A model generated the notes under the pieces. The model was given only the letters and a program-made list of their open reading frames with translations. It did not search any database and was not told the origin of the DNA. Shown here in pieces: positions 1 through 57,999 of a stretch of DNA of 64,000 bases. The stretch is from Fimbriimonas ginsengisoli Gsoil 348. Its GTDB lineage: Bacteria > Armatimonadota > Fimbriimonadia > Fimbriimonadales > Fimbriimonadaceae. The stretch is taken from contig NZ_CP007139.1 in assembly GCF_000724625.1 (NCBI RefSeq), positions 372,001 through 436,000 on the forward strand. Direction: 5' to 3'. Position numbers and translations under genes: made by a program. Numbering within the stretch: position 1 is the stretch's first letter; every line of letters begins with the position of its first letter.

Positions 1-2482
1 AGCCAAGTCGTTTGGCAATATCGCGGGCCAACGTGTAGTGCTCACGGGCATTCTTAAAGTCGCTAAGATCCAAATAGACTTGCCCAAGGTTGAAGTGGAT
101 TAACGCAGCCGATTCACTGTTCTCCTCCACTGCGGCTAGAGCTTCGAGGTGACATTGGATGGCTTTTTCGTCGGATTCTCTCTGGTGAGCGGTATTTTCA
201 CCGCTCCAAAACCAGATAAAGCCCTCCATAGATTTGGCCGCGACCCAGTTTCGCGGGTGGGACTCCCTCGTGTAGTAGGACAGCGCCTTGAGACAATCTT
301 GGCGGGCCGCTTCGTACCCCTCGGGGTAGGACGCTTGGATGCTCGCAAGGAGAAGGGACGCATAAGCGATCACGTCTTTGTTGCCAAGCCGATTGGCTAC
401 ACTCTGGGCCGCTCTCATCGCGATGACCGCAGGGGCCATGGTCTGTTGGGACCTCGGCGAAGCGGATTTGGCCAGTACTTCGCCCAGCTGAAGTTGCGTC
501 ATCATCCATGGAATCGGGTTCTTTTCCTCCGATAGTGCGGCAAGTGCCTGCTGAGCGGCGGCGACGGCCTCCACCTTTTTTCCCTGAAGCATGAGCAGAC
601 GGCTCGTCACGACGTGAGCGTGCGCCCAGGGTTCTGGTTCGCGATCTTTGTCCATACCGCTTTCCACTTCACTAAGCAGATGATCGGCTTCGGTCATGCT
701 TTCGTTTGCCGCTTTCAAGTCAAACATCGGGCGCCGTATCAAACAGTCAGCCAACAACACGCGACAAGAAGTCCATGTTATTTGATCCGTTTCCCTATGA
801 ATATGGGGAAGTGCCTTTCGAAGTCCACGTATGGCCTCCTCCGAATTGGATTCGGAATCCCCGGTTGGACTATCGAATAATGCTTCAGCGAGGAAAAACT
901 GAGTGTAGGCCCAAGCTTCAGGAAAGGAGTCTTCGGTAAAAACGGTGAGCGCGGCCCGGTGGTGCGGAAGGGCTTTGATACCTTTTAGTGCTCGGCCAAG
1001 GCTGTTTTGAAGCTTTGCCCAAAACTCGGCGTCATTCCGTTCTGAGACAATCGCCAGAGCAGATTCAAAGCAACTCGCGGCTTGCGTGTCGTCGACGTTA
1101 ACCAGCAAGATTCCCAACTCGTTGAGCATGATTGCCAACTCGTTCGAAGAAACCTTGTTCCGAGCCAACTCGATCGCCTGGGTTAGCATAGGGGCAGCTA
1201 TTCGCGCTGCTTCGGACGAAGAACTTTGGCTTTGAGCGACGGCTTTAGCGAATGTGGCTTGGGTACGAGCCCACTCGAGAGGGTGACTTTCCCTCGTGTA
1301 GTATCTTTGGGCTTCCTTCATGCAGTCGATCGCCCGAGCCGGGTCGCCCGGGCCGCCCAACATGGAATACATCGAACCGAGATTGGCAAGGGCTCTTGCC
1401 GCTAGCTCTGCTTGCCCATGTGAACGCATGAATGGAATGACCGACCGATATATGCCGATCGCAAGCGCGGCATTGGCGTCCGACCCTTTGGCCGTATCGA
1501 AATAGGCAGAGCCAAGCTCTCCAAGAATTCGAGCATGGTCGAGTGGGGCTTTCTTCTCATCTACGAGCGCTAACAAGACCTGAAGCGCCTTAATCCGGAG
1601 AAGCTTTTCGTTGCAGATTTCAAGGCTGCTCTGGAGGCGAGCGTCGTTGACGGTATCTGCCAGCGTCTCCTGCTCGTCATAAAGTGCACTCTTGGGTACG
1701 GCGAAGAGAAAAGATCCCCGGGCTACGGGTGTCCAGGGGAGGGCAATCTCCGAGCGGGCTCGTCCGAATAAGTCCTTGGCCGTTACCCAGCCTTGTTTGT
1801 ACTTGGTGAGAAATTCGAGCTCAGAAGAGAGACGACCGAGAAACCTAGTCGACTTAAGACTATCGTTAGTGATCGCAGCAGATACTGCGTCAGTCCCCGC
1901 CCAGATGGCCCGGAAGGGTAGTTGGGCCTGGTCTTTTACAGAAGCGTTCGGAGAGGGGACACCAACTCCTTCGTCGACGATCGAACCGGCGTAGCAAGCA
2001 TCTGAAACAAGCATCACGTGCTTCGCCGGAATTCCCTTAAGCACGATATCTCGAACTGCTGCCATGGGTACGTAGTCGTCCGGGTTGGTCCGATGCGTGG
2101 CATTCTTGGTGGGAGTGGCACCTAAGAAGAATCCGGATCCGGAGTCAACCTCGCCATGGAGCGCGAGGGCAATGAAGACTCGGTCGTTCGCCTGGACTCG
2201 TCGGGGATCTTCAAGCCTCTCGAGTTCCTGTCGGATTCGCGTAGCGGTGGCTTGCCCGCGGTCTAAGACGACGACGTTTTCGCGGGGAAACCCGCATCGG
2301 TCGATGAGGTCAGCGGCCAAGGTTCGGACAGAATTGCCGAAAGCACTTTCGCCGTTGGGTCCGACGTCGTCGGCGATGCAGAGGGCATGGGACGTGCGGT
2401 AAAAATGCGTCCCGCCGTAGTCAATCGGCTTGATGGCAACGTCGGACAGGGCCAGCGTAGCGAGTGCAAGAGTGACAGTCAT
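1..2482 (-). CDS. Caspase-like peptidase (C14 family) with TPR-rich C-terminus, 3' end outside window
   Basis: The reading frame starts at an ATG at 2482 and stays open to the window edge (about 827 codons). Residues 1-230 look like a caspase/metacaspase-fold protease. The catalytic His is in ALALHGEVDSG (His109) and the Cys in LVSDACYAGS (Cys163), so the dyad is intact. The rest is helical with repeated A/L/Y patterns (for example YTRESHP twice), typical of tetratricopeptide repeats. The N-terminus is mildly hydrophobic, but a signal peptide is not certain. The start overlaps the stop of the upstream FecR-like gene as ATGA, so the two are probably translationally coupled. By family knowledge, caspase-TPR proteins act as regulated proteases in signalling or cell death. 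The substrate is unknown. Confidence 0.85.
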   Translation of the reverse strand, partial: MTVTLALATLALSDVAIKPIDYGGTHFYRTSHALCIADDVGPNGESAFGNSVRTLAADLIDRCGFPRENVVVLDRGQATATRIRQELERLEDPRRVQANDRVFIALALHGEVDSGSGFFLGATPTKNATHRTNPDDYVPMAAVRDIVLKGIPAKHVMLVSDACYAGSIVDEGVGVPSPNASVKDQAQLPFRAIWAGTDAVSAAITNDSLKSTRFLGRLSSELEFLTKYKQGWVTAKDLFGRARSEIALPWTPVARGSFLFAVPKSALYDEQETLADTVNDARLQSSLEICNEKLLRIKALQVLLALVDEKKAPLDHARILGELGSAYFDTAKGSDANAALAIGIYRSVIPFMRSHGQAELAARALANLGSMYSMLGGPGDPARAIDCMKEAQRYYTRESHPLEWARTQATFAKAVAQSQSSSSEAARIAAPMLTQAIELARNKVSSNELAIMLNELGILLVNVDDTQAASCFESALAIVSERNDAEFWAKLQNSLGRALKGIKALPHHRAALTVFTEDSFPEAWAYTQFFLAEALFDSPTGDSESNSEEAIRGLRKALPHIHRETDQITWTSCRVLLADCLIRRPMFDLKAANESMTEADHLLSEVESGMDKDREPEPWAHAHVVTSRLLMLQGKKVEAVAAAQQALAALSEEKNPIPWMMTQLQLGEVLAKSASPRSQQTMAPAVIAMRAAQSVANRLGNKDVIAYASLLLASIQASYPEGYEAARQDCLKALSYYTRESHPRNWVAAKSMEGFIWFWSGENTAHQRESDEKAIQCHLEALAAVEENSESAALIHFNLGQVYLDLSDFKNAREHYTLARDIAKRLG

Positions 2483-19993: not shown

Positions 19994-21706
19994 ATGACTT
20001 CTTACCTTGTCGTACTATCCGCATCCGGTAAGCCGCGAGAGGCGCTTCGGTTGGCGCGGCGGCTACAAGCACTCGGTCTTCCCGTCTGGGTGAGATCGAG
20101 CGAGACGGGCGTGAATACCTCGACCGAGAGAGAGTTGGCTCAAGCGATGGAGGCCAGCAGCGGCGTGGTCATCCTCGTAGACTCCGACCAGATCTCCTTC
20201 GCCGCGCTTCAAGATCTTAAGTGCGCATCCAGGTTCGACCTCCCGATGATCGCAATCCGCGATCAAGGAAACGCCCAGGTTCCCCAGGCCGCGGCTACCT
20301 TCGAGTTGAGCGAATTGACCTCGGCCGACCTCCTCGATGTTATTCGGCCCGAAGCCGAAGAGAAAATGGCGGCGCTCGACGGTCCTCCGCCCGTTCACTT
20401 CTTGCCAAACCCGGAGAGTGCACGGGCGGCGGCCGCCAACCATATCGGCGGATACAGAAATCCCGATCCGGGCTCGCGGTGGGCGATCGTCCTTCTGGCC
20501 TTTGCCTTGGCCGTCTCATTAATGGAGACGTGGCACTCCATTGCCACCTTCTTCTTGTTGGATAAGGATTCTCCAGAACGACTCTTCTATCACGCAAGTG
20601 AAATCGATTTCTGGAGCATCGTCTTCCTCGCCTCGACGGTTATCGCAGGGATTCCGTACTTGATATGGTTCAATCGGTCCTATAAGAATCTAATCACGTT
20701 AGGCAATAGCGACCTACAATATACTCCCGCGATGGCGACGGGCGGCTATTTCATTCCGTTGGCCAACCTGTACATTCCGGCGGCCACTATGCAAACCCTG
20801 TGGAAGGGAACGGATACGAGCGGTTCCCTGAGCGACCTCTACGCATGGAAGAAGAGCGACGGATCCGTCCTAGTCGGATTCTGGTGGGCTTGGTGGCTAG
20901 CCGCGATGATCGTTCCCCGGCTCGCCCGACAAGAAGTACAAAGACTGAGCCATGTCACCGACGAAAAACTAAAAGCGGATGGATTCAGGTCCGCGCTTTC
21001 TTTCTACATCTTCGCTGATTTAGCCCAAATCCTTGCCGCAATTTGCATCATCGCCATCGTCGTAACGATCGGTAACCGGATGTGGGATCGGTATCGCCGA
21101 TACTCAACCGAGATTGCCGGAGTTACCCCGGAACCAAGGCCCAAATCAAATTGGGCCGGCCAAATCGTCGTCGGAGCGATTCTTTTGACGGGTCTCATCT
21201 TCGTCGGCGTTACTCACCAGTCGACCAACCAACTTCCACCAACGGAATGGCACTCGATTGAGCAGCGTGAGAACGGCTTTTCAGTCGAAATGCCGGGACA
21301 GATGGTCCCTCAAGGGTCGCTACCGGAACCAGGGCGTCATCAACTCCTATCAAGCACCCCTTATGGCGGCTTCATGGTGGTTGAGGAAAGCTCTGACGAG
21401 GCGTTCCCTTCCGACTTGACATTCGAACAACTGAAGTCAGTCGCCAACCTGGCCCTCAAGCCGCTGGTCGAGGCCGTTGGAAAAATCCAAGGCGAGCCTT
21501 CTCGAGCCATGGTTAACGGCAAGCTGGGAGTCCAGATGGACTTTACGCCGATAGATTCAGGCTCAGGCAAAAAGTGGACGTTCGGTCAGGCGATCTTCCT
21601 GTTAAAGGGCAAACACTTTTTCTGCCTACTTGCCTTTGGCGCCCCCGATAAACATGTAACTGACGACGCCGCTCGGTTCATATCGTCCTTCCGCGCAGTA
21701 GATTAG
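19994..21706 (+). CDS. TIR-like domain fused to a DUF4328 membrane domain
   Basis: In this 570-residue protein, residues 1-105 look like a TIR-type flavodoxin fold (YLVVLSASGKPREALRLA at the start; SSGVVILVDSDQISFAAL). The usual catalytic Glu after the conserved Trp/Cys is not evident, so NADase activity is doubtful. A spacer leads to four or so membrane segments (about 155-375). The core YLIWFNRSYKNL, LGNSDLQYTPAMATGGYFIPLANLYIP and TLWKG (given in parts) is typical of DUF4328. A soluble C-terminal domain (about 410-570) resembles small beta-rich exported domains. The gene below is probably in the same operon. Confidence 0.7.
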   Translation: MTSYLVVLSASGKPREALRLARRLQALGLPVWVRSSETGVNTSTERELAQAMEASSGVVILVDSDQISFAALQDLKCASRFDLPMIAIRDQGNAQVPQAAATFELSELTSADLLDVIRPEAEEKMAALDGPPPVHFLPNPESARAAAANHIGGYRNPDPGSRWAIVLLAFALAVSLMETWHSIATFFLLDKDSPERLFYHASEIDFWSIVFLASTVIAGIPYLIWFNRSYKNLITLGNSDLQYTPAMATGGYFIPLANLYIPAATMQTLWKGTDTSGSLSDLYAWKKSDGSVLVGFWWAWWLAAMIVPRLARQEVQRLSHVTDEKLKADGFRSALSFYIFADLAQILAAICIIAIVVTIGNRMWDRYRRYSTEIAGVTPEPRPKSNWAGQIVVGAILLTGLIFVGVTHQSTNQLPPTEWHSIEQRENGFSVEMPGQMVPQGSLPEPGRHQLLSSTPYGGFMVVEESSDEAFPSDLTFEQLKSVANLALKPLVEAVGKIQGEPSRAMVNGKLGVQMDFTPIDSGSGKKWTFGQAIFLLKGKHFFCLLAFGAPDKHVTDDAARFISSFRAVD

Positions 21707-42891: not shown

Positions 42892-44409
42892 GTGTCTGAA
42901 ACAAAATGGTTAGCGGTGTCTTCAAACGGAGCGGTGGCGCTGGGGTCTTACGAGGCCGGGGTACTTGCTCAAATCTATGCGGATGTCGCCGCCCTAAATC
43001 AGCACTCGGGTGAGCAAGTCGTCGGCATCGACGCGATCGCGGGTGCGTCGGCGGGAGCCGTCACCGGAGCCCTCCTGGCCCAGGCCATCGCCACCTCCGC
43101 CAGTTCAGACTGGCTGACCGGCCGACTCCTTAAGGCCTGGGTCGAAGACCTCAACGCGGATACGCTGCTCGGAAAAACCGACAACGCCTCCCACTCCCTT
43201 TTCGATCCAACCGCGTTCGACGTCATCGCACCCGAGGTGCTCATGTCGGACGACGAGGTCCGGAGCGCCTGCGCGGGACGCGAGGTCCCGACGGTCGCCC
43301 TTTGGATCGCATTGACCAACGTCGGCGGCATCCCCTACACGATCCCGGTCTCCAACGGCGAGGTCATCGCCAGCCTTTACGCCGACTACGAGCCGTTCCT
43401 CATCGAGAAAGGGATTCCTCATCGGGCTCCGCCCATCGAGTCGCTGAAGTCGGATGCCCCGGACACCGGCATGCCGCTAAGTTGGAAAGAAGTGGAACTG
43501 GCCGTCATCACTTCCGGCGCGTTCCCGTTCGCTTTCAAGAACCGCATCTTAGAGAGGGACCTCGACAACTACCCGGATGCCGTACGTCCGGCCGACGGCT
43601 CGGCGAAGGTCAAATTCAACTACACCGACGGAGGCGTAATGAATAACAACCCTCTCGGCAGGGCGATCGACGCCGCTTCGTTCCAGGAGAAGTTGAGCGG
43701 CCATCGAGGTCCGCGAACGTTCCTCATCATCGAGCCGGACCCTTCCACCGCCCAGCAGGCACAGGCCAACCTGGCCAAGGTGAAAAACACGCTCGATCCG
43801 AATGGAATGCCGCCGCTACAACTTGGCGCCTCCCTAATCAACGCTTATTTCAATGAGGCGATGTACCGGGACCTCGCCACGGCGACAAAGACGAACCAGC
43901 GCCTCCAAGCCCTCAACGACACTCTTCAGGCGCTCGCCCTGCCCGACGAAGAAGCAGATGCGATTCGTAAGGCGGTCGGCATGGACTACAAGAAGGTGAT
44001 CGAGATCGACCGGATTCCCGGCGTCGCCCGGCTCCACCCGCTGGCTGGATCGTTTGCGGGCCACTTTGGCGGTTTCTTCGATCGGCGGTACCGCGTCCAC
44101 GACTTCGCCGTCGGCTGCTTGGAAGCCAGAAACTGGTTCAAGCGCTGGTACCCCGGCGCGGACGGGCTCAAGCCGGTGCTGGAGAGCAAGCTGGCCGAAG
44201 GGGTTTCGCCGGCCACCGTCGATCCGGGCGGCTTCGGCGGCATCGATGACAAGGCGCTCGGGCATACGAAGGACAAGGTGGCCGACCGGGTGGAGTCGCT
44301 GGTAGAGCACGCGCTCAAAGCCGGTGGCCTGCTCGGCCTTTTGGAACGGCCTCTCCTCGCTCTGGGCCGTCACGTGGTTCGCGAAGAGTTGAACCGAGTA
44401 ATGAAATAA
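42892..44409 (+). CDS. Patatin-like phospholipase
   Basis: In this 505-residue protein, SSNGAVALGSYEAGVL is the oxyanion-hole region, GASAGA (about residue 53) the GxSxG nucleophile motif, and YTDGGVMNNNPLG (about residue 245) the Asp of the Ser-Asp dyad. The family hydrolyses acyl chains from membrane lipids and serves as an effector in several bacterial immune systems. The start is GTG 42892. It lies upstream of a small gene with a good ribosome-binding site, and both converge on the MoxR-vWA operon. A cell-killing effector role is inferred from this context only. Confidence 0.85.
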   Translation: MSETKWLAVSSNGAVALGSYEAGVLAQIYADVAALNQHSGEQVVGIDAIAGASAGAVTGALLAQAIATSASSDWLTGRLLKAWVEDLNADTLLGKTDNASHSLFDPTAFDVIAPEVLMSDDEVRSACAGREVPTVALWIALTNVGGIPYTIPVSNGEVIASLYADYEPFLIEKGIPHRAPPIESLKSDAPDTGMPLSWKEVELAVITSGAFPFAFKNRILERDLDNYPDAVRPADGSAKVKFNYTDGGVMNNNPLGRAIDAASFQEKLSGHRGPRTFLIIEPDPSTAQQAQANLAKVKNTLDPNGMPPLQLGASLINAYFNEAMYRDLATATKTNQRLQALNDTLQALALPDEEADAIRKAVGMDYKKVIEIDRIPGVARLHPLAGSFAGHFGGFFDRRYRVHDFAVGCLEARNWFKRWYPGADGLKPVLESKLAEGVSPATVDPGGFGGIDDKALGHTKDKVADRVESLVEHALKAGGLLGLLERPLLALGRHVVREELNRVMK

Positions 44410-45431: not shown

Positions 45432-48400
45432 CTAAACCTCGTGCCGCCCCGCCTTGCTCGGGGCGTCGAAGCTGAGATGATGAGACGCGGCCACTTGGGT
45501 TCCATCGCGGAACGTGATAATCATCCTGACCTCGAACGTTCCCCAACCTTCGGATCGCAAAGAAAAATCCGTTGAGGCATCCGTAGTCATCCTTACCGAC
45601 AGCGCAAACGAATCGTGGAGGATGTAGCGCACGGACCGAACGCTTTGCACGAACTCAGGCGACTCATCTAGAAAGAGACGCCAGCGAAAACGGCCTCGAG
45701 GATCGTCAGACTTGACTTGGCGAGCCAAGTTGCCCACCTTAATGTTGCGCGTGGGAAGCTTCTTCCAGATGGCCATGGCCGCCAAAAGCATTTCGGCCGG
45801 TGTCTCGTCTTGCAGCCAAGTCAGCAGATTTCTTGAATAAGTGGCGTCCTTTTCCTTACCTTGCCAAACCAGGAGCAGTTCAGTAGTGTTTTTCGTGGTC
45901 CGGTATCGGTGAAACCAAGCTTCGCAATAAGACTGAACGTCTGAACTATCCGGGCTCACGGTAAGCCAGGCGATCAAAACACTCTCAGCTTCGCGATGCC
46001 TTGAAAACTGCTCCAACCAACTGAGAACATGGGACCGAACGGGTTCCCTTATGTACGTAGCAAGCAGCCACGCCGCAAGGACCTTGCCCGCCTCTAAATA
46101 CGCGCCGTACTGGTCCAGCCAGGCCAGGAATGAGGCGAGCCGTTCCTCGCTGAGGCCGGTGCGTCCTTCTCGCATGCCCCGTTCGAGAAACTCGGTCCAA
46201 GCCTGTGCTTGTTCTTTTGCGATCTCGTCTCGGCGCTTTTCGCCTTCGAAAGCTCGTTCCAACCAACGCAACACCTGGGCGCCGTCATCGGTGGAACCGA
46301 CCGCTCCGTGGACTACCGCCATGTTGTGATGTTCGCGACGGCTCGAGCCGGCGAAAATGATGCACGGCGGTATTGGACGGCTACGTTCGGAAAGCCCCGC
46401 CAGCAGTTTGTAGCCGGCAAGCCGGTCGGGGGGGCGTGACATGTCCGTAACGATCGCGTCGAACGAGTAGCTGTCGTACAGCCGCAAGGCCTGGTCGGTA
46501 TCTAACGCTAGAGTCGTTATTGCCCCACTGTCAGTGCATCGATCCACTAGGTAGCGGTTGTTCCCTGGACGGTCGTCGACCCAGAGAATTCGCTTGCCCA
46601 GCCACGGCCGTCTTTCAGTAGGCGGCGCTTCCGCAAGTTGAAGCGCTTCTAATAAGGCCGATTTCCAAACCAATTGAGGCCGCTTCGGGGGCGCGTACTC
46701 GTCGAGGATCGATCGGACCGTTTGAACCACTCCCTCCACCGTCGGGATCGTTCCGCCTCGCGTAGACGAGAGGGCTTGTGCGAAGGCGTATGAGAGGTAG
46801 CCGTATCCAAGGACATGGCTTTCCTCGAGGTCTATCCCCAGCACGGCGCAACGCGTCAGTTTCTCCGCCACCGCCTCGATAAAGGGGGTCCTCCCCGCGT
46901 CCAGAACCACCAGCGCCCGTAACGACGGAAGGCGTTCCAACGCATCGTTTAGCTTGCGAAGGTCATATTTGTCTCGGTTGACGTCGATCCAAATCTGGTC
47001 GCCGTCTTCCTTGCCGAAGCCGTTGACGTGAACCAAAAAGAAGTCGTCCGGGCCACATTGGGAAAGAATTGAGTCGATCTCCGAAACCAGGACGTTTTCG
47101 GAGGGATCGTCCAAAGTGCTGACGGTAAATCCACGAGATCGAAGCGCCGCCGCCACGATTTCGTTATCGCGTCGCTGGTACTGGTAGCCAATGTCCCCGC
47201 TCACTACCAAGGCCCGCCATTGCTTCACCGGGCGGTCGATGATAGGCGCCGGAGGCGGAACATCCGTTTCGATCCGGCGGAAGTCCACCCGCGAACTACT
47301 TTCCGCATATGTCGCGAGGATCGGCAGGTTTGGGTGGAAAAGAACGCCGCCGTATAAGCCGGCGGTGCCGATTTGGAAGGAGGCGATCTCCTGCCACGAC
47401 TCGCAATTCCAAATGCGAACGGTGCCGCTCAATTCTAGACTCGCCAGCCGCCGGTCGTCAGAGCTGAAGGTGACGCCGACGACGACATCTGTGTGGTCTA
47501 GGGTGGTGTTCGACTGCCGATCGATGTTCAGGATATTGACCGAATGGTCCGAACTGGCCGAGGCAAAGATCGATCCAGACCGGTTCCATGTAATGGCATT
47601 GACGGCCCCACGATGGACGACGGAAGGGGCCATCTGGTGAGAAAATCGTATGGCGCCGTTCTCATAGCCTACGGCACACCGGGCAAGCTTGGGATGCGCG
47701 GCTACGCAGATAGCTCCGCTATTGGGAGCCGTGTACATGACCTTGTATTCGGTCCCTTCGCGGTGATAGGCAACGGCTCCGTCCTTTCGACTGCACGCTA
47801 CCGTGAGGTTGTCGGCGATGCCGATATCCTCGATTGGCCCGATAAGCGACCTCTCGTGAATGGTCCACTTGCCGGATTCCGGCTCGAAGAAAACCGGCCC
47901 TTCGGTCTCCAAACCGACCACCAGTCGGCGCATTCCTCTCCCTATGGCGACCGCTCGTGATCCCGGCGGCACGTGGAACCGGATCTCGCCGCTCGCCATA
48001 ATTTGAGCAATTCGTTCGCCTCCGGCGACGACAAAATCGGAGCCATCTGGCGCCCACGCTCCGCCGGAGATTTGACAACCTTCCAGCGTGGCGGCGTTGG
48101 CAAACGGAGTTCGCAGGTCGCGGGCGAGCGCGCGAACCAGGGCAGTCGGCTCGTTGACCCGGGCGTCCCAGGGGTACGAGGAGGTCGTTGTGCCGAACGG
48201 ACCCTCGTAGAGGATCGCCGGATGTTGGGGAAACTTGGCAACCAGGTCCTCGTAGCCGCGCTCCACGTCGTGATTCTTGTCCAAGTCAACGATGAGAACC
48301 GGTCGAAGCTCAGAGGCGGCTTCGACTTGAGCCTCAAAATCGAGGACGTCCGGCAACCGAAGGTCAACCCCGCAGTACCGCAAAAACTCCCATAGCCCGT

Positions 48401-51400
48401 GATCCGTCGCCAACTCTTCCCCGAGGCCAATCACGACTAAGCCCGACAAAGCCGCCGCCTCGGCGGGAGGATTCCACCGAACGAGATCGGCGTTTCTTCC
48501 CGGTTCGTGATGAATCAGTCCCGTGCCACCGGAGCGAAGCCACATGCCGACGTTATTCAGCAGCCCGAAAATGGTCAACGTGTCGAGCGGCCAGGTGTAA
48601 GCCTCCCCGGCGAAGGCTCGCCTTAGCCACTCAGTTAGGGAGGGAGCGCCGTCAACCGGAGGACCCATAAAGACGGTCGAGGCTCTTGGCAGAGATTTGG
48701 GCTGCATCGCAACCGGCTCGGTCGAATCGACGGTTACTAACAGCGAGTGAGAGACATCAAGTCCCATGCCGCGGATGAAATCCTCTAGCCGCGACCAAAC
48801 TTTTCCGTCCGAAAAGCCAAGTCCACCCGCGGTGTCGAGTCGCACTGGGCCTCGAAGATGGACTAGCACCGGACCATTCGCTAATGCTTCCGCAGCACCG
48901 GAGAACAGTTGACGCATGGCCCCGGGCGAATAGCCCTCGCCGCCGAACCGCTGGACCACCAACCCCGTGGCTCGAAGCTGTCCCTCCAGGGTCTCGATCT
49001 CCGCGTCGTCCCGCTCCGCCGACCAGAGTAGCGCCGTGGTAGCGATCCCTTCGATGACAGGCGATCCTCTCCAGTCGTCTCCTTTGAGGGGAGAGTGGTC
49101 GCCGTAGGCTCTTGGGAGCGGGAAGAGCTTCGGCTCCGGGTTGCCGGCAACGGCGACCGCGACGATCGGCTCTTTCGGGTGAAAGGCAAGAATTCGATCG
49201 GTTTTCGGATCGAACCCTTCCGGTTCGAACGGGACTCGGTTTCCGGTGGCGATGTCGATCAGGCGGGAGCGGTCGTCGTCTTCTAGGAGCAGCGTCGCCC
49301 GATCGGGCGCAATCGTAGCACGGCGGACAAACTTCGGGCGAGTTTCTTCAAACGCTTCGGCAACCGATCCGTTCAAGTCAAAGGCCACAACCCGGCCGAT
49401 TTCAGTTACAGCGAGGAACCACGACTGATTACGGGTCGGCAAGATCGCGACGACAGGGCCGCCGAGGTCGGAAAGAATTTGGTCGCCGCGCTGATCCTTT
49501 AATCGGATTGGTCGAACCGGACGGAGCAAGGCGTCCAGTGTTTGCTCGCCCAAATGATGGTAGGCACGGACCTCACCCAACATTGTCCCAATGACGGTGA
49601 ACTGAGCCCTAATCAGGGTGGAGGAGGGTCGATCTCCAAAGACCGCAAATTCTGGACCACTAAGTCTCGGATCACCCATCGGCTCGGGCCCTTCGATGGA
49701 TTTCAAAGTTGCGAACAAAGCAGACCGTCTTGTCTCACTGTTCCCGATGTTTTCCATGAGGTCGCCCGAAATCCAGAACATTGGGGCGTTCGGGGGCCAG
49801 CTAAGCGCGTGTACCAGGTGCTCTGCCCTTCGCGTGAGTTCTGGGTGAAGGATTCCGTCGTGAAACCGCAGAATACGCACCTCTCTTCCGGCGGCAACCG
49901 CAAGTTGAGTTCCATCCCGCGACCAAGCTGCTAAGGCCATCGGAACCTGACTTGCAGCCCCGACGGCCAAGGCAAGTAAGCTAGGGACGAGCGTGAGGTC
50001 GTTGGTAACATGCTCGTGCCCAGTGGCTCGCAGTTGCACCAGATCTTCGGCGTCTAGGAAAGGGTCAAATAGAACCGTTCGCTCTCCGAGAGGAGCAGGA
50101 AGACTGAGTGGTTTAGATCGCAACCCGATCCGATCGACACGAAGGGTCGCCACGGAGTCAGCCCCCTCGGTGCCTACCACTTCAATGCCTGCGCCGCCGA
50201 GCAAAATTCGGATCGAGTCGTCGTTTACCGCTTCTAGTCGAACTCGCGCACCGACCAGGGCCGGTTCGGCTCTGAAGGGAATCGCAAAGTCAAAATGGAT
50301 AACGCCATCCCCTACTAGATTGATTCTTCCCTCCTGGTGCTCGACCCAATCGATCCACGTATTAAGAGATTGCCGCAGCGCAGTTCGGCCCGCCGGAAGA
50401 TCCTGTCCTCGTAAACGGCGGACGAAAGCGGCTAAACCGAGATCGCTGACGTCGTCTCGCGATATTAAGCTTTGCGCTGGCTCTATGAGAACGAGTAGGG
50501 ATCCTGCGTCCGGCGCGCCTCTGCGCAGCTCATCCAAACTAAAGCTCGCCTCGTGTACTGCTTGAGCGAAGTAGATACTCGCGCCCCGTCGAGTTGCATC
50601 TTGCGCCCGGATCGCGAGGGCCTTAGCCCTTTCCTCGGAGTCAATCGTTACCCTCCATCCGAGTCGTCGCAAAATGGGCGCGATCTCTTCGACGAGGGAG
50701 CCACCTGCCGAGGAAAGGAATGCCGCCCCCTCAAAGGAAGGACATAGGCGATCGACGTCGATGTCGTAGTAGCGAACCGTATCACCGCCACCCGTCCAAG
50801 CGGCAAGCCGAGACTCGGTGGGATGGAAACGGACACCACCGGTTTCATCGCCGGCTTCGATCGTCCATCGCCCGACTTCTTCCCACAGGTCGGTCCGCCA
50901 AAGGCACACGACTCCGGCTTGGTCCAGCGAGGCGAGGATTCGGTTATCGGGGCTGAAGGAGACGCTTACGACCGGGTTGAGGGGAGTTGCTGTGGAGCCC
51001 CAGAATCGGAAATCGTCGAGAGGCATGCTTCCCGTCGATTGTTCGTTCGGGCGCAGGTTTATTACGTTCGTGGAGTCGCGGGCGTAGATGCGAATCTCGC
51101 CGCTGGCGGAAGCCGCGGCCAAGCGGGTCCCGTCCGGATTCCACGCGAGATCGGTGATCGAATTGGAAGTAGAACCAACAGAGCGTCCGCTGACCCAACT
51201 GCCTCCGTGGCTCCCCGAGGGCAGATCCACGATTGCGTGCACGTTGCCACTGACATTTCCGAATGCGAGAGTGTTGCCGCGTGAAGCAAAACAGGTGACT
51301 CCCAATCTTGCGCCCGGCTCACCGAACCGGGTGCCTCTTTCGGCTAGGTATTCAACGATCGAATCACCGAAAATAATCTCCCCTCGATGCAGGACCATGG

Positions 51401-52295
51401 CGGTCGACTCGGAAACCGTCCGCACCGAGTCCGGACGTCTAAATCCAGACAAGTAGCGGGAGACCTGACCCGCCGGAGAGGTCCAGCATAACCGTTGTTC
51501 GCCGTCGAAGATCATTGACGCTACGGACGGCTCACCTTCGGCTCGCTGGGGAGAGCGGCCGGCTTCGTCGATTCTGAAGATCCCCCCCTCTCCTCCGGCC
51601 ACGAAACTGGTGCCGTCCGGCGACCAGAGGCCGCACCTAATGGCTAGGCCAGGCATCGTTACCTCGACCGGGACCTCGCTCGGCTGAATCTCCTCCCGAT
51701 CGTCCACCACTCTTGCCAAGGCGTCCATCTGCGGAACCGTTCCCGAGAGATGACGGGCCGCTTGAACGTAGTAGGCGCCGGAGGCGACGCCCGTTCCTTC
51801 CGGCAAGCGGGATAGGAGCTCGCTGATTTCCTTCGTCGCTTGGACTCGCCCGTTTGGCGTCACCGTGAGTGCGAACCAGCGCTGAAGCTCTTCTTCCTCT
51901 GGGGAAAAATAGAGGTGGCGGCGGGTGTAGTCGGCCACGTAGTCGAGGAGAAAATTCTGGAGTCGCTGGCCTTGCTCTTTGATGAGCGTTTCGGCTTCTT
52001 GGCGCAGGAGCCGTTGCACCGATTCGTGCATCGCGTACTGCTCGCGACCGGTCGGACGGCAGATGGACGGATCGAGGAGCAGATCGACGCCGATCTCCCA
52101 GGCCAGGGCACGGGTCATGAACCGTTCGCGCAGAAAGTGAACCAGCTCCGGGGTTAACAGAAAGGGAAAGGAGCAAAGCTGAGCCAACTCTCTCGCTGCG
52201 AGTTCCACGTCGGGCGCCGGGCTTCGCCGGGCGACCCGCTCTTGAAACGATTCGACCGCGGCAAGCGCCTCGTCCTTGTCTGCCAACGTTCTCAA
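45432..52295 (-). CDS. Giant multidomain scaffold of a MoxR-vWA conflict system (propellers, pseudocaspase-like modules, receiver, pYEATS-like)
   Basis: A 2287-residue protein. Residues 1-200: helical domain, likely the MoxR/vWA-partner region. 205-515, 790-1080 and 1405-1680: WD40-like beta-propellers (for example WSPDGTSFVAGG, WSRDGTQLAVAA, WAPDGSDFVVAG). After each comes a Rossmann-like module: about 520-660, 1085-1245 (plus 1285-1370) and 1690-1850. The last two resemble caspase folds, with LVHVNGFG and LVVLDAGRTP where active enzymes have HG and DxC, so they should be inactive. 1900-2018: receiver domain (WVDDRPGNN; candidate phospho-Asp1951 in VTDMS). 2030-2160: Trp-rich helical repeats. 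2195-2275: pYEATS-like domain (VRYILHDSF, GWGTFEV). TTG start, overlapping vwa (TTGA). Confidence 0.8.
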   Translation of the reverse strand: MRTLADKDEALAAVESFQERVARRSPAPDVELAARELAQLCSFPFLLTPELVHFLRERFMTRALAWEIGVDLLLDPSICRPTGREQYAMHESVQRLLRQEAETLIKEQGQRLQNFLLDYVADYTRRHLYFSPEEEELQRWFALTVTPNGRVQATKEISELLSRLPEGTGVASGAYYVQAARHLSGTVPQMDALARVVDDREEIQPSEVPVEVTMPGLAIRCGLWSPDGTSFVAGGEGGIFRIDEAGRSPQRAEGEPSVASMIFDGEQRLCWTSPAGQVSRYLSGFRRPDSVRTVSESTAMVLHRGEIIFGDSIVEYLAERGTRFGEPGARLGVTCFASRGNTLAFGNVSGNVHAIVDLPSGSHGGSWVSGRSVGSTSNSITDLAWNPDGTRLAAASASGEIRIYARDSTNVINLRPNEQSTGSMPLDDFRFWGSTATPLNPVVSVSFSPDNRILASLDQAGVVCLWRTDLWEEVGRWTIEAGDETGGVRFHPTESRLAAWTGGGDTVRYYDIDVDRLCPSFEGAAFLSSAGGSLVEEIAPILRRLGWRVTIDSEERAKALAIRAQDATRRGASIYFAQAVHEASFSLDELRRGAPDAGSLLVLIEPAQSLISRDDVSDLGLAAFVRRLRGQDLPAGRTALRQSLNTWIDWVEHQEGRINLVGDGVIHFDFAIPFRAEPALVGARVRLEAVNDDSIRILLGGAGIEVVGTEGADSVATLRVDRIGLRSKPLSLPAPLGERTVLFDPFLDAEDLVQLRATGHEHVTNDLTLVPSLLALAVGAASQVPMALAAWSRDGTQLAVAAGREVRILRFHDGILHPELTRRAEHLVHALSWPPNAPMFWISGDLMENIGNSETRRSALFATLKSIEGPEPMGDPRLSGPEFAVFGDRPSSTLIRAQFTVIGTMLGEVRAYHHLGEQTLDALLRPVRPIRLKDQRGDQILSDLGGPVVAILPTRNQSWFLAVTEIGRVVAFDLNGSVAEAFEETRPKFVRRATIAPDRATLLLEDDDRSRLIDIATGNRVPFEPEGFDPKTDRILAFHPKEPIVAVAVAGNPEPKLFPLPRAYGDHSPLKGDDWRGSPVIEGIATTALLWSAERDDAEIETLEGQLRATGLVVQRFGGEGYSPGAMRQLFSGAAEALANGPVLVHLRGPVRLDTAGGLGFSDGKVWSRLEDFIRGMGLDVSHSLLVTVDSTEPVAMQPKSLPRASTVFMGPPVDGAPSLTEWLRRAFAGEAYTWPLDTLTIFGLLNNVGMWLRSGGTGLIHHEPGRNADLVRWNPPAEAAALSGLVVIGLGEELATDHGLWEFLRYCGVDLRLPDVLDFEAQVEAASELRPVLIVDLDKNHDVERGYEDLVAKFPQHPAILYEGPFGTTTSSYPWDARVNEPTALVRALARDLRTPFANAATLEGCQISGGAWAPDGSDFVVAGGERIAQIMASGEIRFHVPPGSRAVAIGRGMRRLVVGLETEGPVFFEPESGKWTIHERSLIGPIEDIGIADNLTVACSRKDGAVAYHREGTEYKVMYTAPNSGAICVAAHPKLARCAVGYENGAIRFSHQMAPSVVHRGAVNAITWNRSGSIFASASSDHSVNILNIDRQSNTTLDHTDVVVGVTFSSDDRRLASLELSGTVRIWNCESWQEIASFQIGTAGLYGGVLFHPNLPILATYAESSSRVDFRRIETDVPPPAPIIDRPVKQWRALVVSGDIGYQYQRRDNEIVAAALRSRGFTVSTLDDPSENVLVSEIDSILSQCGPDDFFLVHVNGFGKEDGDQIWIDVNRDKYDLRKLNDALERLPSLRALVVLDAGRTPFIEAVAEKLTRCAVLGIDLEESHVLGYGYLSYAFAQALSSTRGGTIPTVEGVVQTVRSILDEYAPPKRPQLVWKSALLEALQLAEAPPTERRPWLGKRILWVDDRPGNNRYLVDRCTDSGAITTLALDTDQALRLYDSYSFDAIVTDMSRPPDRLAGYKLLAGLSERSRPIPPCIIFAGSSRREHHNMAVVHGAVGSTDDGAQVLRWLERAFEGEKRRDEIAKEQAQAWTEFLERGMREGRTGLSEERLASFLAWLDQYGAYLEAGKVLAAWLLATYIREPVRSHVLSWLEQFSRHREAESVLIAWLTVSPDSSDVQSYCEAWFHRYRTTKNTTELLLVWQGKEKDATYSRNLLTWLQDETPAEMLLAAMAIWKKLPTRNIKVGNLARQVKSDDPRGRFRWRLFLDESPEFVQSVRSVRYILHDSFALSVRMTTDASTDFSLRSEGWGTFEVRMIITFRDGTQVAASHHLSFDAPSKAGRHEV

Positions 52296-53464
52296 CCGCC
52301 CCTACCCCCTTTGGCGACCGAGCCGCGCAGGTACGCGATCGCCTGATTCAAGCCGTCCTTCGTCATAGGGAGCATCGGCACCCCGACCGCCACATAGCGG
52401 GCCGACGAGCCTTCCCACCGGTGGGCGGGCATCGGATTCAGCCACGCCACGTATCGAGTCTTCCGGCGGACCCGCGCGAGGAGCCGCAAGGTTGGCACGA
52501 TCCGGCCATCGGTATCCAAACTCCCACGCGCCGCTCCCGCGTCGCTGACGATCAACACACCGCAATTCGGCCGACAACTGGCGAGAACCCGGTCGAACGA
52601 CACCGGCTCGCGCAAGGTCGCCTGCTGGAAGACCTGATCCTGAAAAACATCGTGGAAGTAGAAGACCCGAACGTTGGCGATTCCGCTCTCCTCAACCGCC
52701 GCCGCGACGAGGTCTCTCGTCAGCCAGTGGAACGGGGCCATCGACCCTTCTTGATCCACCAGCATCAAGAGCTCGGCATCGTTTCTCTCCCGCCGCCGAA
52801 GGACCGGCTCGAGGAAGAAGCCCCGGTCGGCGGTGCGCCGGACGGTTTCGGGAATGTCGATGACGGAAGGGGCCCCGTAGTGACCGGGGCGACGAAACCG
52901 ACGCCATGCGTGGATCATGCCGGCGCGGGGGACCGGACCCGCGGATGCCGCCTCCATCGCCCGGTCCCGGTGGTCGGGCACGGCGGCGGTTACCGGGTCG
53001 ACCCGCGATTCGCCCCCTTGGCTCTCCTTCTTGGGTTCGGAACGCGCCTCGCGGCTCTCTTCCTCTTGAGGCTTTTGGGGTTCGTCGAGGGATTTATTCG
53101 TTTCCTCGCTAGTCGGCGTTTGCGCCAGTGGCGAATCCGCGGTTGTCGTGGGGCTGGAGGGATCCGCCTCCTTGCCTCGCGAGGAATCGGCGTTTGTTTG
53201 CGCCTCGACCCGGGGCCGGATTTCGACCCAGGTCTGCTGTAACTCTTCGACGTCGTCCGTCGACTTGCACCAGAGCTGTTCGGTCAGCCAGGCGAGCTCG
53301 AACCTCTCGCCGGTGGCTGGGTCACCTTGGGCAGCGGCGATCGCGTCGAGCAGATCCCGGGTCCCCAGCGAGCGATTGACCCGGCTGCGGAACGAGTTAA
53401 AGGCCAGCGTTAGGGCCTCTAAGTCGGAGATCGTGCTCGTATCCGCGGGCCGGGGGGTGCTCAT
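52292..53464 (-). CDS. vWA-domain protein, partner of MoxR ATPase
   Basis: In this 390-residue protein, the N-terminal 95 residues are helical, about 96-160 is an acidic, Ser/Thr/Glu-rich linker, and about 232-385 is a von Willebrand A domain. The metal site LVDQEGSMAPFH begins at Asp237 (DxxGS instead of DxSxS) and SDAGAARGSLD follows. The preceding RRRERNDAELLML segment is typical of vWA proteins of MoxR systems. Overlaps of 4 bp on both sides (moxR upstream, scaffold downstream) show tight coupling. By family knowledge it bridges the ATPase and the effector component. Confidence 0.88.
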   Translation of the reverse strand: MSTPRPADTSTISDLEALTLAFNSFRSRVNRSLGTRDLLDAIAAAQGDPATGERFELAWLTEQLWCKSTDDVEELQQTWVEIRPRVEAQTNADSSRGKEADPSSPTTTADSPLAQTPTSEETNKSLDEPQKPQEEESREARSEPKKESQGGESRVDPVTAAVPDHRDRAMEAASAGPVPRAGMIHAWRRFRRPGHYGAPSVIDIPETVRRTADRGFFLEPVLRRRERNDAELLMLVDQEGSMAPFHWLTRDLVAAAVEESGIANVRVFYFHDVFQDQVFQQATLREPVSFDRVLASCRPNCGVLIVSDAGAARGSLDTDGRIVPTLRLLARVRRKTRYVAWLNPMPAHRWEGSSARYVAVGVPMLPMTKDGLNQAIAYLRGSVAKGGRGG

Positions 53465-54399
53465 GGCGTTGGCGGAGCAAGGGCGGGCCGAAGGTCGGAT
53501 GCTACTTTGATCAGCACTTCCGGATAGGGAAGCTCACCTTCGCGAAGCTGGGCTTCCCATTTGACCAAACCGTCGTCGAACCCGTCGATGGCGTGTAGCC
53601 AATCGAGAAACTCGCTGGTACCGGGCTTCTTTTGGAGGTTCGGCAATCCACGAACCTTATCAAAACGCGTTGCCGCCTCCTCGGCCGCCGCCGGCGCGTC
53701 CTTATCGAATTTATTCTTCCAATGAATCTTTACGATCTGGCTAAGCTGCTCCTTCTCCGGAAAGCTTACGAATCGGTACAGACACCGGCGCAAGAAAGGG
53801 TCCGGTAGGTTTCCCTTTTCGCGGTTGCTGGTGATGATGTAGATCGGCTCGCATCCCTCGGCCGGTCCCAAATGCTCGCCAAGCTCAGGAATCGGGATCG
53901 CGCTTTCGCGGTCGATTACGTTCAGCAGGTCGTTGGCAAAATCGACGTCGGCTTTGTCGATCTCGTCGATGAGCACAACCGTCCGGGTATCGGTACGGCG
54001 GAACGCCTTTCCGATGGCGCCGTAACGAACGTAGTCGCTCGATCGGGCGGGGTCTCGGTCATTCGCCAACCCCTTCTTCTCCAACTGGACGTCGTGCAGC
54101 CGAAGAACGGCGTCGTACTCGTATAGCCCATCCTTCGCCCGGCTGCCCGAGGTGATGTTCCACCGCTCGATCGGAATCCCCAGTTCGTACGCTACCGCGT
54201 ACGCCAGGCGAGTCTTGCCACAACCCGGCTCCCCTTCCAATAGAAGGGGCCGCTTGAGGAACATCGCCAGCCGAACCGCGCGGACGAGCTCCGCATCCGG
54301 AACATACGGCTCCGGCTTGCCGGCCGGGGGAGCCTCGGCATGCGCATCCGGCCGTTGTTTACCGACACCGGTGTAGGGAGGAAGTTTGGAAGTACTCAT
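53461..54399 (-). CDS. MoxR-family AAA+ ATPase
   Basis: A 312-residue AAA+ protein. Walker A is GEPGCGKT (residues 56-63), Walker B VVLIDEID (141-148), sensor 1 IITSN, and the arginine region DPFLRRCLYRFVSFP. The lid domain ends the chain. Proteins of this type use ATP to remodel partner proteins with vWA domains; here the vWA gene follows immediately with a 4-bp overlap. ATG 54399 overlaps the TIR gene stop. The N-terminal 35 residues are a short low-complexity extension. Confidence 0.93.
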   Translation of the reverse strand: MSTSKLPPYTGVGKQRPDAHAEAPPAGKPEPYVPDAELVRAVRLAMFLKRPLLLEGEPGCGKTRLAYAVAYELGIPIERWNITSGSRAKDGLYEYDAVLRLHDVQLEKKGLANDRDPARSSDYVRYGAIGKAFRRTDTRTVVLIDEIDKADVDFANDLLNVIDRESAIPIPELGEHLGPAEGCEPIYIITSNREKGNLPDPFLRRCLYRFVSFPEKEQLSQIVKIHWKNKFDKDAPAAAEEAATRFDKVRGLPNLQKKPGTSEFLDWLHAIDGFDDGLVKWEAQLREGELPYPEVLIKVASDLRPALAPPTP

Positions 54400-55892
54400 A
54401 CGGCAACCATTGGAGAAAAGTGTGCGCTAAAGACCACTCTGCAGGCTTCGGGAAGCGAGTCGAGACGCCCGTCATCGCTGGCTTCGTGCAGGCTCTTACC
54501 GAGCCGCTCCGCATCCCCACTGGGAAAGTTGCATGTCTCGGTTAGCCAATCAACGAGGTCCTTTTCCGAAAACGGTTTGATGGCGAAAGTCGCCACCCTG
54601 GAGCAGTTGGATTGTTCGATTGAACAAGTGAGAGATGTTCGGTGTGGCTCGGCAAACGAATCGACCGACGTCAGGAGAAACACCAATCTCATCGCACTCG
54701 ACGGCTGATTACCGAGAGACGTCAGAAGGTCCTTCCAGAACGTTTCGACAAACCAGTGAAGGACTTCGCCACTACTGGCGATCGTCCACCAACGAATATG
54801 GACCACGTGGAAAATTCCCTCGCCAACATCCGTAGCGATCGCCTTGATTACCTGCGATTGAAGAGCAGCGGCATCGTTTCCAGGATTCGGCACGTCGTAC
54901 CGTTCCGCGAGCTTTGTTAGGACGGTCATGCGACTAATCGGCGCACCGACCAAGCTTATTTGGGGTTCAGGTACTACGTCGGGCCGCTTAAAGACCCCCC
55001 GGGCCTCAACCTCAAGACGTTGAAAACAGATATCCGCTCGCCTGCCTACGCTCCTTTCGGCCATCAGCAGGGCGGCTCGAACTTTCCGCCCGGGTTCGCC
55101 GATGACTCGAACAACAACCTCATTCAGGTTCTGAAAGTCCGCAAGATGGAGGTCACGGACATATCGGTCAATCTTCTCGGCGATTGACCGCTCGCGGGAC
55201 TCTCGGTCGGCGATGCTGGAAGTCAGATCCCGGTCCACGACGGCTTCCGGATCACCATCTAGTTTCTCGGTGCAGGCAATCACGGCAGCGTCGGCCGGAT
55301 CGATGAAAGCGTCGTACCAATGAGATGCCGCCGGATGGGCCGGTAAGACCGGATTCGACTTCACCGCGCGGGTTACAGCACTCGCGATCGCAGTAGCGAC
55401 TCGCCGATAAGATGTCTTATCAGCCTCACCCTTAAGGAAGAGCAATCCGGACTTGGTGTACTGAGAATCGAAGCCGCCGTCCCAACCCCTAACCGATTCA
55501 AGCAGTCCGCCCGCACCTAGTTCCTCTCGATAGAACTCCGGATCCGCCCAGAGCACCGGGATGATCACTGGGGGCGATCCGTCCGCCCTCTTTGCGAATT
55601 CGAGGCGCGCTTTGAAGGTCAAGAACTCTTTTCGGCAATCCCGTTCATGAGCGAAGTAGGCCCCAGAAAGGACGCAGACGAAGCAGCGAGTCCGCTGCAA
55701 CGCAAGTCCAATCTCACGCTTCCAATTGTCGCTTCCCCGGTCTCGGTCGAAGTAGGCCAGCGAGTCGGCACTCGGAACTCGATCCATCGACAGGTTGCTA
55801 TAAACTTTTTTGCAAAGTTCGGACCGGAACTCCAAGAGATCCGCGTCGGCGTCGGCGCCGCTGTGGGAGAGGAAGAAGAGAGGTAGCTCCAT
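54396..55892 (-). CDS. TIR-domain protein with possible inactive-STAND C-terminal region
   Basis: In this 498-residue protein, residues 1-150 are a TIR domain: FFLSHSGADADADLL, LAYFDRDRGSDNWKREIG, and VCVLSGAYFAHERDCRKEF with the catalytic Glu at 89. TIR domains of this type can cleave NAD+. A helical middle follows. From about 320 the chain resembles a NTPase-like fold lacking Walker motifs (VHIRWWTIASSGEVLHWFVE, MRLVFLLTSVDSF, IKPFSEKDLVDWLTE), as in inactive STAND modules. It is immediately upstream of moxR (ATGA overlap). A possible promoter is at 55918-55945. Confidence 0.75.
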   Translation of the reverse strand: MELPLFFLSHSGADADADLLEFRSELCKKVYSNLSMDRVPSADSLAYFDRDRGSDNWKREIGLALQRTRCFVCVLSGAYFAHERDCRKEFLTFKARLEFAKRADGSPPVIIPVLWADPEFYREELGAGGLLESVRGWDGGFDSQYTKSGLLFLKGEADKTSYRRVATAIASAVTRAVKSNPVLPAHPAASHWYDAFIDPADAAVIACTEKLDGDPEAVVDRDLTSSIADRESRERSIAEKIDRYVRDLHLADFQNLNEVVVRVIGEPGRKVRAALLMAERSVGRRADICFQRLEVEARGVFKRPDVVPEPQISLVGAPISRMTVLTKLAERYDVPNPGNDAAALQSQVIKAIATDVGEGIFHVVHIRWWTIASSGEVLHWFVETFWKDLLTSLGNQPSSAMRLVFLLTSVDSFAEPHRTSLTCSIEQSNCSRVATFAIKPFSEKDLVDWLTETCNFPSGDAERLGKSLHEASDDGRLDSLPEACRVVFSAHFSPMVAV

Positions 55893-55998: not shown

Positions 55999-57999
55999 TC
56001 AAGACGGAAATCTCGTGGAAAGCCCCCGCAGGATCAAGTGATTGATCTCGTCGAGATCGCTCGACTCCATCAACCGCAAGTTTTCCGACTCGCTCAGCCC
56101 GTTGTTCAACCCTCCCGGGCCGGCGGTCTGAAGCCTCGTCGTAAATGCCGGGTAGTCGATAGGAGCATTCCCTTTCGATTCGTAGAAAGGCACGAAGGCT
56201 CGATAGCCGGGGTTATGTTCTAGCTGGTAATCCATCGTCAACTCCACGGGAGCCCTTCCCCTTACCCCGTCAGCGACCACCCCGGCGCAGCCGCCGAAAC
56301 CGCCCATGAGATACACGGGCGCGCCTCCTTCGATTGCGATGAGAATCTCCTCCAAGATCCCCGGCATCTTCCCCGTGTACTTGGTCGACGCGCCGGCAAG
56401 CACGACCCGGGCGTGAATTTCTCGGTGCATCCGCTGTCGCATCTCGGTAAAGCAGCGGGCGAGGACGTATCTCTCTTCCGGCTTTAGCGGATCCAACGGA
56501 GTCGCCGGCGATCCCTGAACGTCGTCCGGCAAGGGCAGCATCTCGACGGTAATCAAATTGGTCACTTCCGCCAGACGCTGCCGATTGCCGAACGTATGCA
56601 CCGGCCAAGCCTCGTAATTCGTTAACGACGACGGATCGACTTCGCCTTCGAAGGAGTAGACGAACTCGACCATCCGCTCCGTGAATCCGGCTTTGCGGAG
56701 GTCTCCTCCATAGCCTAGCTTCGCTCCAAAGGCAAGCAGATTCCTCGCAATTTCGTAGGTCGCATCGGTCAGGTGATTCGGGCTCAGCCCCCGCGCGGCC
56801 AAATCCGGAGAGTCCGAGATGGAGATTCCGACCCGCTTGCCCTCCAGCTTGGGCTCGGGCCAAGGCGCGGTCGCGGTGAGAAACTCCGCCGTCGGACAAA
56901 ACTCGCGGATGGCGTCGGTCTCCTCCACTCCCAGCGGGGGGTCCGGATAGACCACCGGCTTCTTGGCTCCCTTGGAGTTACCCGAGCCGAGACCCTTGAA
57001 ATCCAGCAGCTCAGGAGCTCGCAACAGTTGCCGGGCGTTCTTTGGAAAGCGGCCAATGCGGGTGAGCTCGCCTAACCGGCGAAGCTGATACTCAAATCGC
57101 AACGTCTCCGAGAGCGCGGCGAGGACGATGGAATAAGCGTCTTCGGTCCACCGCAGAACCCGGCAATTGCCTAGATACGGGAAGCTGCGGAGCTCCTCTT
57201 TTTCGAGTGCGTCGACGACAACGATAGGACGTCGATACGCCTTGGCAAGCAGTATCTCCTTGCGACACCAAGGTCGCGAGGAATAGCGGTCGGTGACGAG
57301 CGCAATCACGGTCGAACCGCGGATACCGTCCTCGATCTCTTTGGCAAACTCATAGCCGGGCGCTATGCTGACCGCGTCGAAAAACCGGTCCGCGTGGGTT
57401 TCTTCGATCCGCTCCTTAAGCAGTTTCGCTTCTTCGTTTCCATCCTTTTTAGCGTGGCTGATGAAGATACGGATCGCCGATCCCGGCTTGCCTGGTTCAC
57501 TGTTGGCATCGAGCATCCGGCAAAGCTCGTGGGTTACCGAGATCCTGAGGAAAGCCGACGCGTTCTCCTTCTGCAGATCGTATCGGACGCTATTCAGATT
57601 TTTTATCGGCAGGTAACCGATCGCCGAAGCGTCGAGAGCGACGGGCACGAACCCGTGACGCCCTCCCGAGGCAGCGATCCGGCGTTGGATCTCGGTGAGG
57701 TAGGCGGACCATTTTGAGTCGATCACCATTTCGGAGTCGATGAGGGCAATGACGCAAATCGATTCCGCCCCATCGAAATCGATGCCAAGGGGCATATCGA
57801 GCCCCGGGCCGGGCACGCTTCTGAAATAGGTAGGGATACCGATCCCTCGCGTCAGCGGCTCGTCGATGTCGCGACAGAGAAGGGCGTAAAGCTCGGTGGA
57901 AATTGCGGCTCCCTTTGCGACATCCAGCCCGTCGGCATTGAGCTTTGGGCACCAAAGCACGTACACCTGCAAAGGGATGCGGTAGCCATCTTTCGCCAT
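55999..57999 (-). CDS. TIR-like, TIR and SLOG multidomain protein
   Basis: In this 666-residue protein, residues about 8-165 form a divergent TIR-like domain (VYVLWCPK, ICVIALIDSEMVIDSKW). Residues about 174-300 form a canonical TIR domain: IRIFISHAKKDGNEE, STVIALVTDRYSSRPWCRKE with catalytic Glu248. After a linker, about 387-610 resembles a SLOG nucleotide-binding domain: VGISISDSPDL, LLAFGAKLGYGGDLR, then VVLAGASTKYTGKMPG and PVYLMGGFGG. In Thoeris immunity a TIR enzyme makes a cyclic ADP-ribose isomer that a SLOG protein senses; here both would be on one chain. It is the first gene of the conflict cluster. Confidence 0.75.
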   Translation of the reverse strand: MAKDGYRIPLQVYVLWCPKLNADGLDVAKGAAISTELYALLCRDIDEPLTRGIGIPTYFRSVPGPGLDMPLGIDFDGAESICVIALIDSEMVIDSKWSAYLTEIQRRIAASGGRHGFVPVALDASAIGYLPIKNLNSVRYDLQKENASAFLRISVTHELCRMLDANSEPGKPGSAIRIFISHAKKDGNEEAKLLKERIEETHADRFFDAVSIAPGYEFAKEIEDGIRGSTVIALVTDRYSSRPWCRKEILLAKAYRRPIVVVDALEKEELRSFPYLGNCRVLRWTEDAYSIVLAALSETLRFEYQLRRLGELTRIGRFPKNARQLLRAPELLDFKGLGSGNSKGAKKPVVYPDPPLGVEETDAIREFCPTAEFLTATAPWPEPKLEGKRVGISISDSPDLAARGLSPNHLTDATYEIARNLLAFGAKLGYGGDLRKAGFTERMVEFVYSFEGEVDPSSLTNYEAWPVHTFGNRQRLAEVTNLITVEMLPLPDDVQGSPATPLDPLKPEERYVLARCFTEMRQRMHREIHARVVLAGASTKYTGKMPGILEEILIAIEGGAPVYLMGGFGGCAGVVADGVRGRAPVELTMDYQLEHNPGYRAFVPFYESKGNAPIDYPAFTTRLQTAGPGGLNNGLSESENLRLMESSDLDEINHLILRGLSTRFPS

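Follow-up and report, generated by a model that had tools for sequence, protein, structure and literature searches.

The window analysed here, 64,000 nucleotides of the Fimbriimonas ginsengisoli Gsoil 348 genome, encodes on its minus strand a protein that joins two TIR domains to a SLOG domain. The features of this protein and of the genes downstream of it are as follows.

55999..57999, minus strand: TIR-TIR-SLOG protein, 666 aa (open reading frame call, Pfam, AlphaFold2 model)
57496..57999, minus strand: N-terminal degenerate TIR domain, residues 1-168, W97 conserved, no catalytic Glu (AlphaFold2, structural matches, hhalign, alignment columns)
57052..57486, minus strand: catalytic-type TIR domain, residues 172-316 (Pfam, structural match)
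57256..57258, minus strand: predicted catalytic Glu248 codon, in WCRKE (alignment columns, 73/73)
56008..56847, minus strand: SLOG domain, Pfam LD_cluster2, residues 385-664 (Pfam, fold match)
56437..56439, minus strand: Arg521 codon, paired with BcThsA R371 (hhalign; invariant in 73/73)
56347..56349, minus strand: Glu551 codon, paired with BcThsA E403 (hhalign; invariant in 73/73)
54396..55892, minus strand: TIR-iSTAND-like protein with an FxsC-type TIR (Glu kept, DCRKE) and a weak iSTAND, candidate signal source (profile matches)
53461..54399, minus strand: MoxR-type AAA ATPase, context (profile matches)
52292..53464, minus strand: vWA / SAV_2336-type protein, context (profile matches)
45432..52295, minus strand: 2287-aa WD40 / response-regulator receiver / pYEATS protein, downstream of vWA, context (Pfam)

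The domain assignments of the TIR-TIR-SLOG protein are not due to chance. The SLOG domain matches Pfam PF18163 (LD_cluster2) at residues 385-643 with 325.9 bits (E 2.8e-97; gathering cut-off 25.3 bits), spanning positions 2-264 of the 264-position profile. The second TIR domain matches PF13676 (TIR_2) at residues 178-266 with 58.4 bits. Residues 1-168 had no match in the Pfam search, which also returned no SIR2 or STALD match for the protein. Structure prediction, proposed as a check in an earlier note made from the sequence alone, yielded a full-length AlphaFold2 model (28 sequences; pLDDT 88.1, pTM 0.89) that upholds the three-domain description given there. After re-examination of the Foldseek matches, the best structural match of residues 175-296 is the TIR domain of SARM1 (9mw2_A, Z 16.5), a NAD-consuming TIR. 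The N-terminal domain, described previously as an extra, divergent TIR-like region, was also modelled separately with AlphaFold (pLDDT 89.0), and the 50 top-ranked structural matches to this model are, with few exceptions, TIR domains, the best being 4c6t_D (Z 12.1). Alignment of this domain with the protein's own second TIR by hhalign covers the whole domain and places W97 opposite W244; the position equivalent to Glu248 is occupied by L101, which is not acidic. Residues 384-665 bear out the SLOG-like C-terminus of the earlier note, resembling the BcThsA SLOG domain with 3'cADPR (7uxs_A; Z 15.4, rmsd 3.0, 182/196 aligned) and EcThsA (8wc0_A, Z 15.5). A search of the SLOG profile against PDB sequences gave only noise, so the link to ThsA rests on fold and on hhalign. 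As modelled, the SLOG domain has a SLOG/ThsA-like fold, and the second TIR has a TIR fold with a catalytic Glu.

Residue conservation was counted over 73 aligned proteins, consisting of the window protein and 72 relatives. The WCRKE motif, earlier read as an intact TIR active site, is present, and all 73 proteins share Glu248, Cys245 and His182 without exception. In BcThsA, R371, K388 and E403 coordinate 3'cADPR (PMC10022894). This numbering was verified in the chain sequence (Y370-R371, N387-K388 and E403), and when the SLOG domain was profile-aligned to four ThsA proteins, R521 fell opposite R371, and E551 opposite E403. R521 and E551 are each invariant (73/73), and the K388-equivalent column holds Lys or Arg in 54/73, with Ala537 in the window protein. 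Since two of the three ThsA ligand residues are retained, the SLOG pocket appears largely kept as judged from sequence; the ligand is not deducible from these residues. The earlier note had named a missing SLOG match or a SLOG domain lacking a pocket as outcomes that would count against it; instead, PF18163 matches and two of the three ligand residues are in place.

Relatives are patchily distributed. A single-sequence genome scan returned none, and a scan with a 6-sequence profile returned 136 loci. This figure, from a two-pattern scan of species-level genomes, is a minimum, and 80 of the loci were retained. These belong to Cyanobacteria, Bacillota, Bacteroidota, Planctomycetota, Chloroflexota, Pseudomonadota and one Lokiarchaeota genome. 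Within the phylum, the SLOG family was found in 5 of 291 genomes, and it is absent from all other members of the genus. No shared flank or conserved insertion site was seen in the genus, so the claim made here is limited to the absence of the gene from the rest of the genus. Plasmid records with relatives number 11, seven of them at a coverage of at least 80%. A patchy and plasmid-borne distribution fits a defence gene. On the Klebsiella pneumoniae plasmid pKpnB199 (L012, 7138-9976), which is conjugative, split TIR-TIR and SLOG genes with a divergent ThsB-like TIR gene lie among insertion sequences. On alphaproteobacterial plasmids (L015, L016 and L017), the TIR or TIR-SLOG genes repeatedly have a uracil-DNA glycosylase gene upstream, which in L016 adjoins a gene of the NTP pyrophosphohydrolase family.

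The three domains occur on one chain in 39 of 82 loci and as two genes, TIR-TIR and SLOG, in 34 of 82. In the 34 split loci the genes abut, with -16 to +10 nt between them. Well-supported branches of the tree require the arrangement to have switched between fused and split at least four times. Parts that are either fused or abutting, and that have switched at least four times, are probably one functional unit; TIR-TIR and SLOG thus probably work together whether fused or separate.

Separate TIR genes are frequent beside these relatives. A census of partners covered 58 loci with at least 2.5 kb of flank on either side, and 41 of these have a further TIR gene no more than 2.5 kb away; over all 82 loci, the count is 49. 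These counts refer to species, many of them related, and phylogenetic clustering means that they are not independent events. Other TIR genes occur at 0.46 per kb within the first kb; past 4 kb, they mostly drop to about 0.01 per kb and never exceed 0.07 per kb. The partners are mostly small, ThsB-like or related TIR proteins, with up to three consecutive genes in Flavobacteria, and 76 of 77 small partner TIRs retain the catalytic Glu. A ThsB-like TIR adjoins the family gene in each of the two fully readable relatives from the phylum (L006 and L007). In other partners the TIR is fused to a sensor-like module: TIR-nSTAND1 in L028 and L080, TIR-NACHT in L100, TIR-CHAT-TPR in L095 and Hsp70-TIR in L046. 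The Hsp70-TIR gene, from Capsulimonas (L046, 2768-4804; Hsp70 639 bits, TIR 81 bits), is separated by 44 bp from the TIR-TIR gene of the family. The frequency of partner TIR genes and the conservation of their Glu point to a division of labour, predicted from sequence, in which the partner TIR would be the producer of a signal and TIR-TIR-SLOG its effector.

In two further genomes from the phylum, a related SLOG domain shares its chain with a patatin-like stretch that comes after it (L008, 2-1036, and L009, 2-805, both on the minus strand; GGGIRG and GTSTG, seen by eye). The neighbour of the L008 gene, in divergent orientation, encodes a ThsB-like TIR (1491-2039, plus strand). This combination indicates that SLOG may gate a lipase also.

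At 17 of the 58 well-flanked loci, some of them fused, the 2.5 kb on either side contain no separate TIR gene, and some copies may therefore act alone. The earlier note had gone further in this direction, comparing the protein to a Thoeris system in a single chain and proposing that it both produces and senses a self-limited signal. Such a self-contained sensor-effector would be triggered at its TIR by phage or a metabolite and would bind its own product in its own SLOG domain, with positive or negative feedback. The placement of a TIR and a SLOG sensor on one chain, which this comparison assumed, stands on sequence, fold and pocket residues, and both sites on that chain are intact. Self-limited signalling, however, is disfavoured by the 34 loci in which the parts are two genes, by the additional TIR gene that neighbours the family gene at 41 of 58 loci, and by the Glu conserved in nearly every small partner; the closeness of the TIR fold to the NADase SARM1 also speaks against it. 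A self-contained protein is an unlikely explanation.

The division of labour resembles that of Thoeris type III, which is defined here by the NCBIfam models ThcA (NF058525, cut-off 110 bits) and ThcB4 (NF058526, cut-off 220 bits) and by the loci read. Six bona fide type III loci (L111 and L119-L123) encode a ThcB4 of about 390 aa with an N-terminal domain and a TIR; ThcB4 of L111 served as the positive control at 440 bits. The adjacent gene encodes ThcA, a protein of about 196 aa (245 bits) with a SLOG of cluster 3 (PF18180), and up to three small TIRs lie alongside. The SLOG clusters reportedly go back to Burroughs and colleagues in 2015. Like type III, the family couples a TIR protein to a SLOG protein and, in relatives, has one to three small TIR genes alongside. 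By hhalign, the N-terminal TIR and TIR part compares with ThcB4 at 96.6% (E 6e-10) and the SLOG domain with ThcA at 71% (E 3.6e-5). Unlike type III, the three domains are fused in the window, the SLOG belongs to cluster 2 (PF18163) instead of cluster 3, the ThcB4 C-terminal domain is lacking, and no ThsB gene adjoins. Against NCBIfam, the window protein scored 40.8 bits with ThcB4, below the cut-off of 220, and had no match to ThcA; its N-terminal domain has no clear sequence relationship to the ThcB4 N-terminus. Judged by its architecture, the protein is type-III-like and is not classed as a member of type III. The two kinds of system coexist in the genome of Flavobacterium soyae, which harbors a bona fide type III locus (L111, 7382-9796) as well as a split TIR-TIR/SLOG locus accompanied by three TIR genes (L061).

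Other known systems share some of these properties. As in Thoeris type I, which consists of a SIR2-SLOG ThsA and a TIR protein ThsB, the SLOG fold and two of three residues that coordinate 3'cADPR are present, SLOG is fused to an NADase-type domain, and the usual partner in relatives is ThsB-like. Unlike type I, a TIR replaces SIR2, the SLOG is not of the STALD family, and there is an additional inert TIR. By analogy with TIR-STING, TIR-SAVED and Cat1 (CARF-TIR), a nucleotide-sensing domain may gate a TIR NADase on one chain, although here the sensor is SLOG and the TIR is duplicated. The window showed neither a cyclic-nucleotide synthase nor a link to CRISPR.

The explanation we prefer, with a probability of roughly 0.6, is that TIR-TIR-SLOG is the effector arm of a multi-TIR abortive-infection system resembling Thoeris type III, in which it serves as a signal-gated TIR NADase. 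The domains, predicted folds, conserved residues, coupling of TIR-TIR to SLOG, and enrichment of partner TIR genes beside relatives are observed, and around them we infer signal, assembly, catalysis and anti-phage activity as follows. A different TIR protein would sense phage and make an ADP-ribose-type signal from NAD+. This signal would bind the SLOG pocket, at R521 and E551, and binding would cause the protein to self-assemble, its inert N-terminal TIR acting as scaffold. The second TIR would then hydrolyse NAD+ through Glu248, and the cell would be halted. The SARM1-like TIR fold, the ThsA SLOG fold and the invariant Glu248, R521 and E551 suggest this effector role, as does, by analogy, the similar layout of TIR, SLOG and small TIRs in the six type III loci. 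What counts against it is the lack of an adjacent small ThsB-like TIR in the window, the 17 of 58 loci with no other TIR gene within 2.5 kb, Ala537 and the missed type III cut-offs.

No small ThsB-like TIR gene adjoins the TIR-SLOG gene in the window. The gene lies instead 106 bp upstream of the TIR-iSTAND gene, on the same strand, and the TIR-iSTAND, MoxR, vWA and 2287-aa genes follow with successive 4-bp overlaps. The FxsC-type TIR of the TIR-iSTAND protein scored 66.8 bits and its iSTAND 20.4 bits, short of the 24-bit cut-off; the MoxR and vWA neighbours gave AAA and VWA_CoxE matches above cut-off. Two further genes in the window were noted. One (42892-44409, plus strand) encodes a patatin-like phospholipase near this conflict-type operon, and the other (19994-21706, plus strand) a 570-aa protein with DUF4328 and a weak N-terminal TIR_2 (21.6 bits, under the cut-off).

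TIR-iSTAND fusions and effector swapping have been described in ternary conflict systems of MoxR, vWA and iSTAND (Kaur et al. 2020, PMC7159879), and the operon downstream of the TIR-SLOG gene is like these in its MoxR, vWA and TIR-iSTAND-like genes. The TIR-SLOG protein could thus have joined such a system as an additional effector or a regulator, its SLOG gating or tuning the operon; the shared strand, the short gap and the overlapping genes favour this, and the earlier note had already raised a regulator of the MoxR-vWA operon. TIR-SLOG is, however, not a described core part of ternary systems, and the relatives lend the idea no support. Neither TIR-iSTAND nor vWA was found near any other relative, and the sole MoxR-like ATPase near one lies about 6 kb off, in L080; a conserved association with MoxR-vWA was rejected on these grounds. 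Searches found no TIR-iSTAND match elsewhere in the phylum sample and no vWA match elsewhere in the genus. As no clear counterpart of either was found in the other genomes searched, their pairing with TIR-SLOG is one instance. The 106-bp gap moreover contains a promoter-like match, although such matches are no commoner than chance. Recruitment to the operon is improbable.

The window copy could also be an orphan, that is, a horizontally acquired effector that has lost its ThsB partner and is idle or run by a TIR protein encoded elsewhere in the genome. It is the sole member in its genus, it lacks the ThsB-like neighbour present in L006 and L007, further TIR open reading frames are found elsewhere in the genome, and Ala stands at the position of K388. 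On the other hand, there is no sign of decay: the reading frame is unbroken, every catalytic residue is conserved and so are most residues of the pocket. It is very unlikely that the gene is a mere remnant of this kind.

If TIR-TIR-SLOG is the effector of a multi-TIR system, the window TIR-iSTAND, with its MoxR/vWA operon, is the likeliest candidate to replace the ThsB-like partner as signal producer. This proposal draws on one instance and on the analogous TIR-STAND neighbours elsewhere. It can be widened to the tentative and rather unlikely view that TIR-STAND sensors in general, including TIR-nSTAND1, TIR-NACHT and TIR-iSTAND with a MoxR-vWA chaperone pair, produce a diffusible signal, derived from NAD, to be read by a separate TIR-SLOG executioner, the window being an example in which TIR-iSTAND stands in for ThsB.

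Finally, the TIR-TIR-SLOG family is widespread, yet the NCBIfam and PADLOC models applied here do not pick it up. It offers a single-chain system for identifying a TIR-made signal and for studying how SLOG switches a TIR. The analysis suggests that bacterial TIR-STAND proteins are perhaps signal producers and not just depleters of NAD+. If the effector role set out above is true, TIR domains would stand at both ends of the pathway, one making the signal and the other, gated by SLOG, executing the response. On the wider view of TIR-STAND sensors, a bacterial sensor NLR would act through a TIR gated by a second messenger, which would parallel TIR-NLR signalling in plants.
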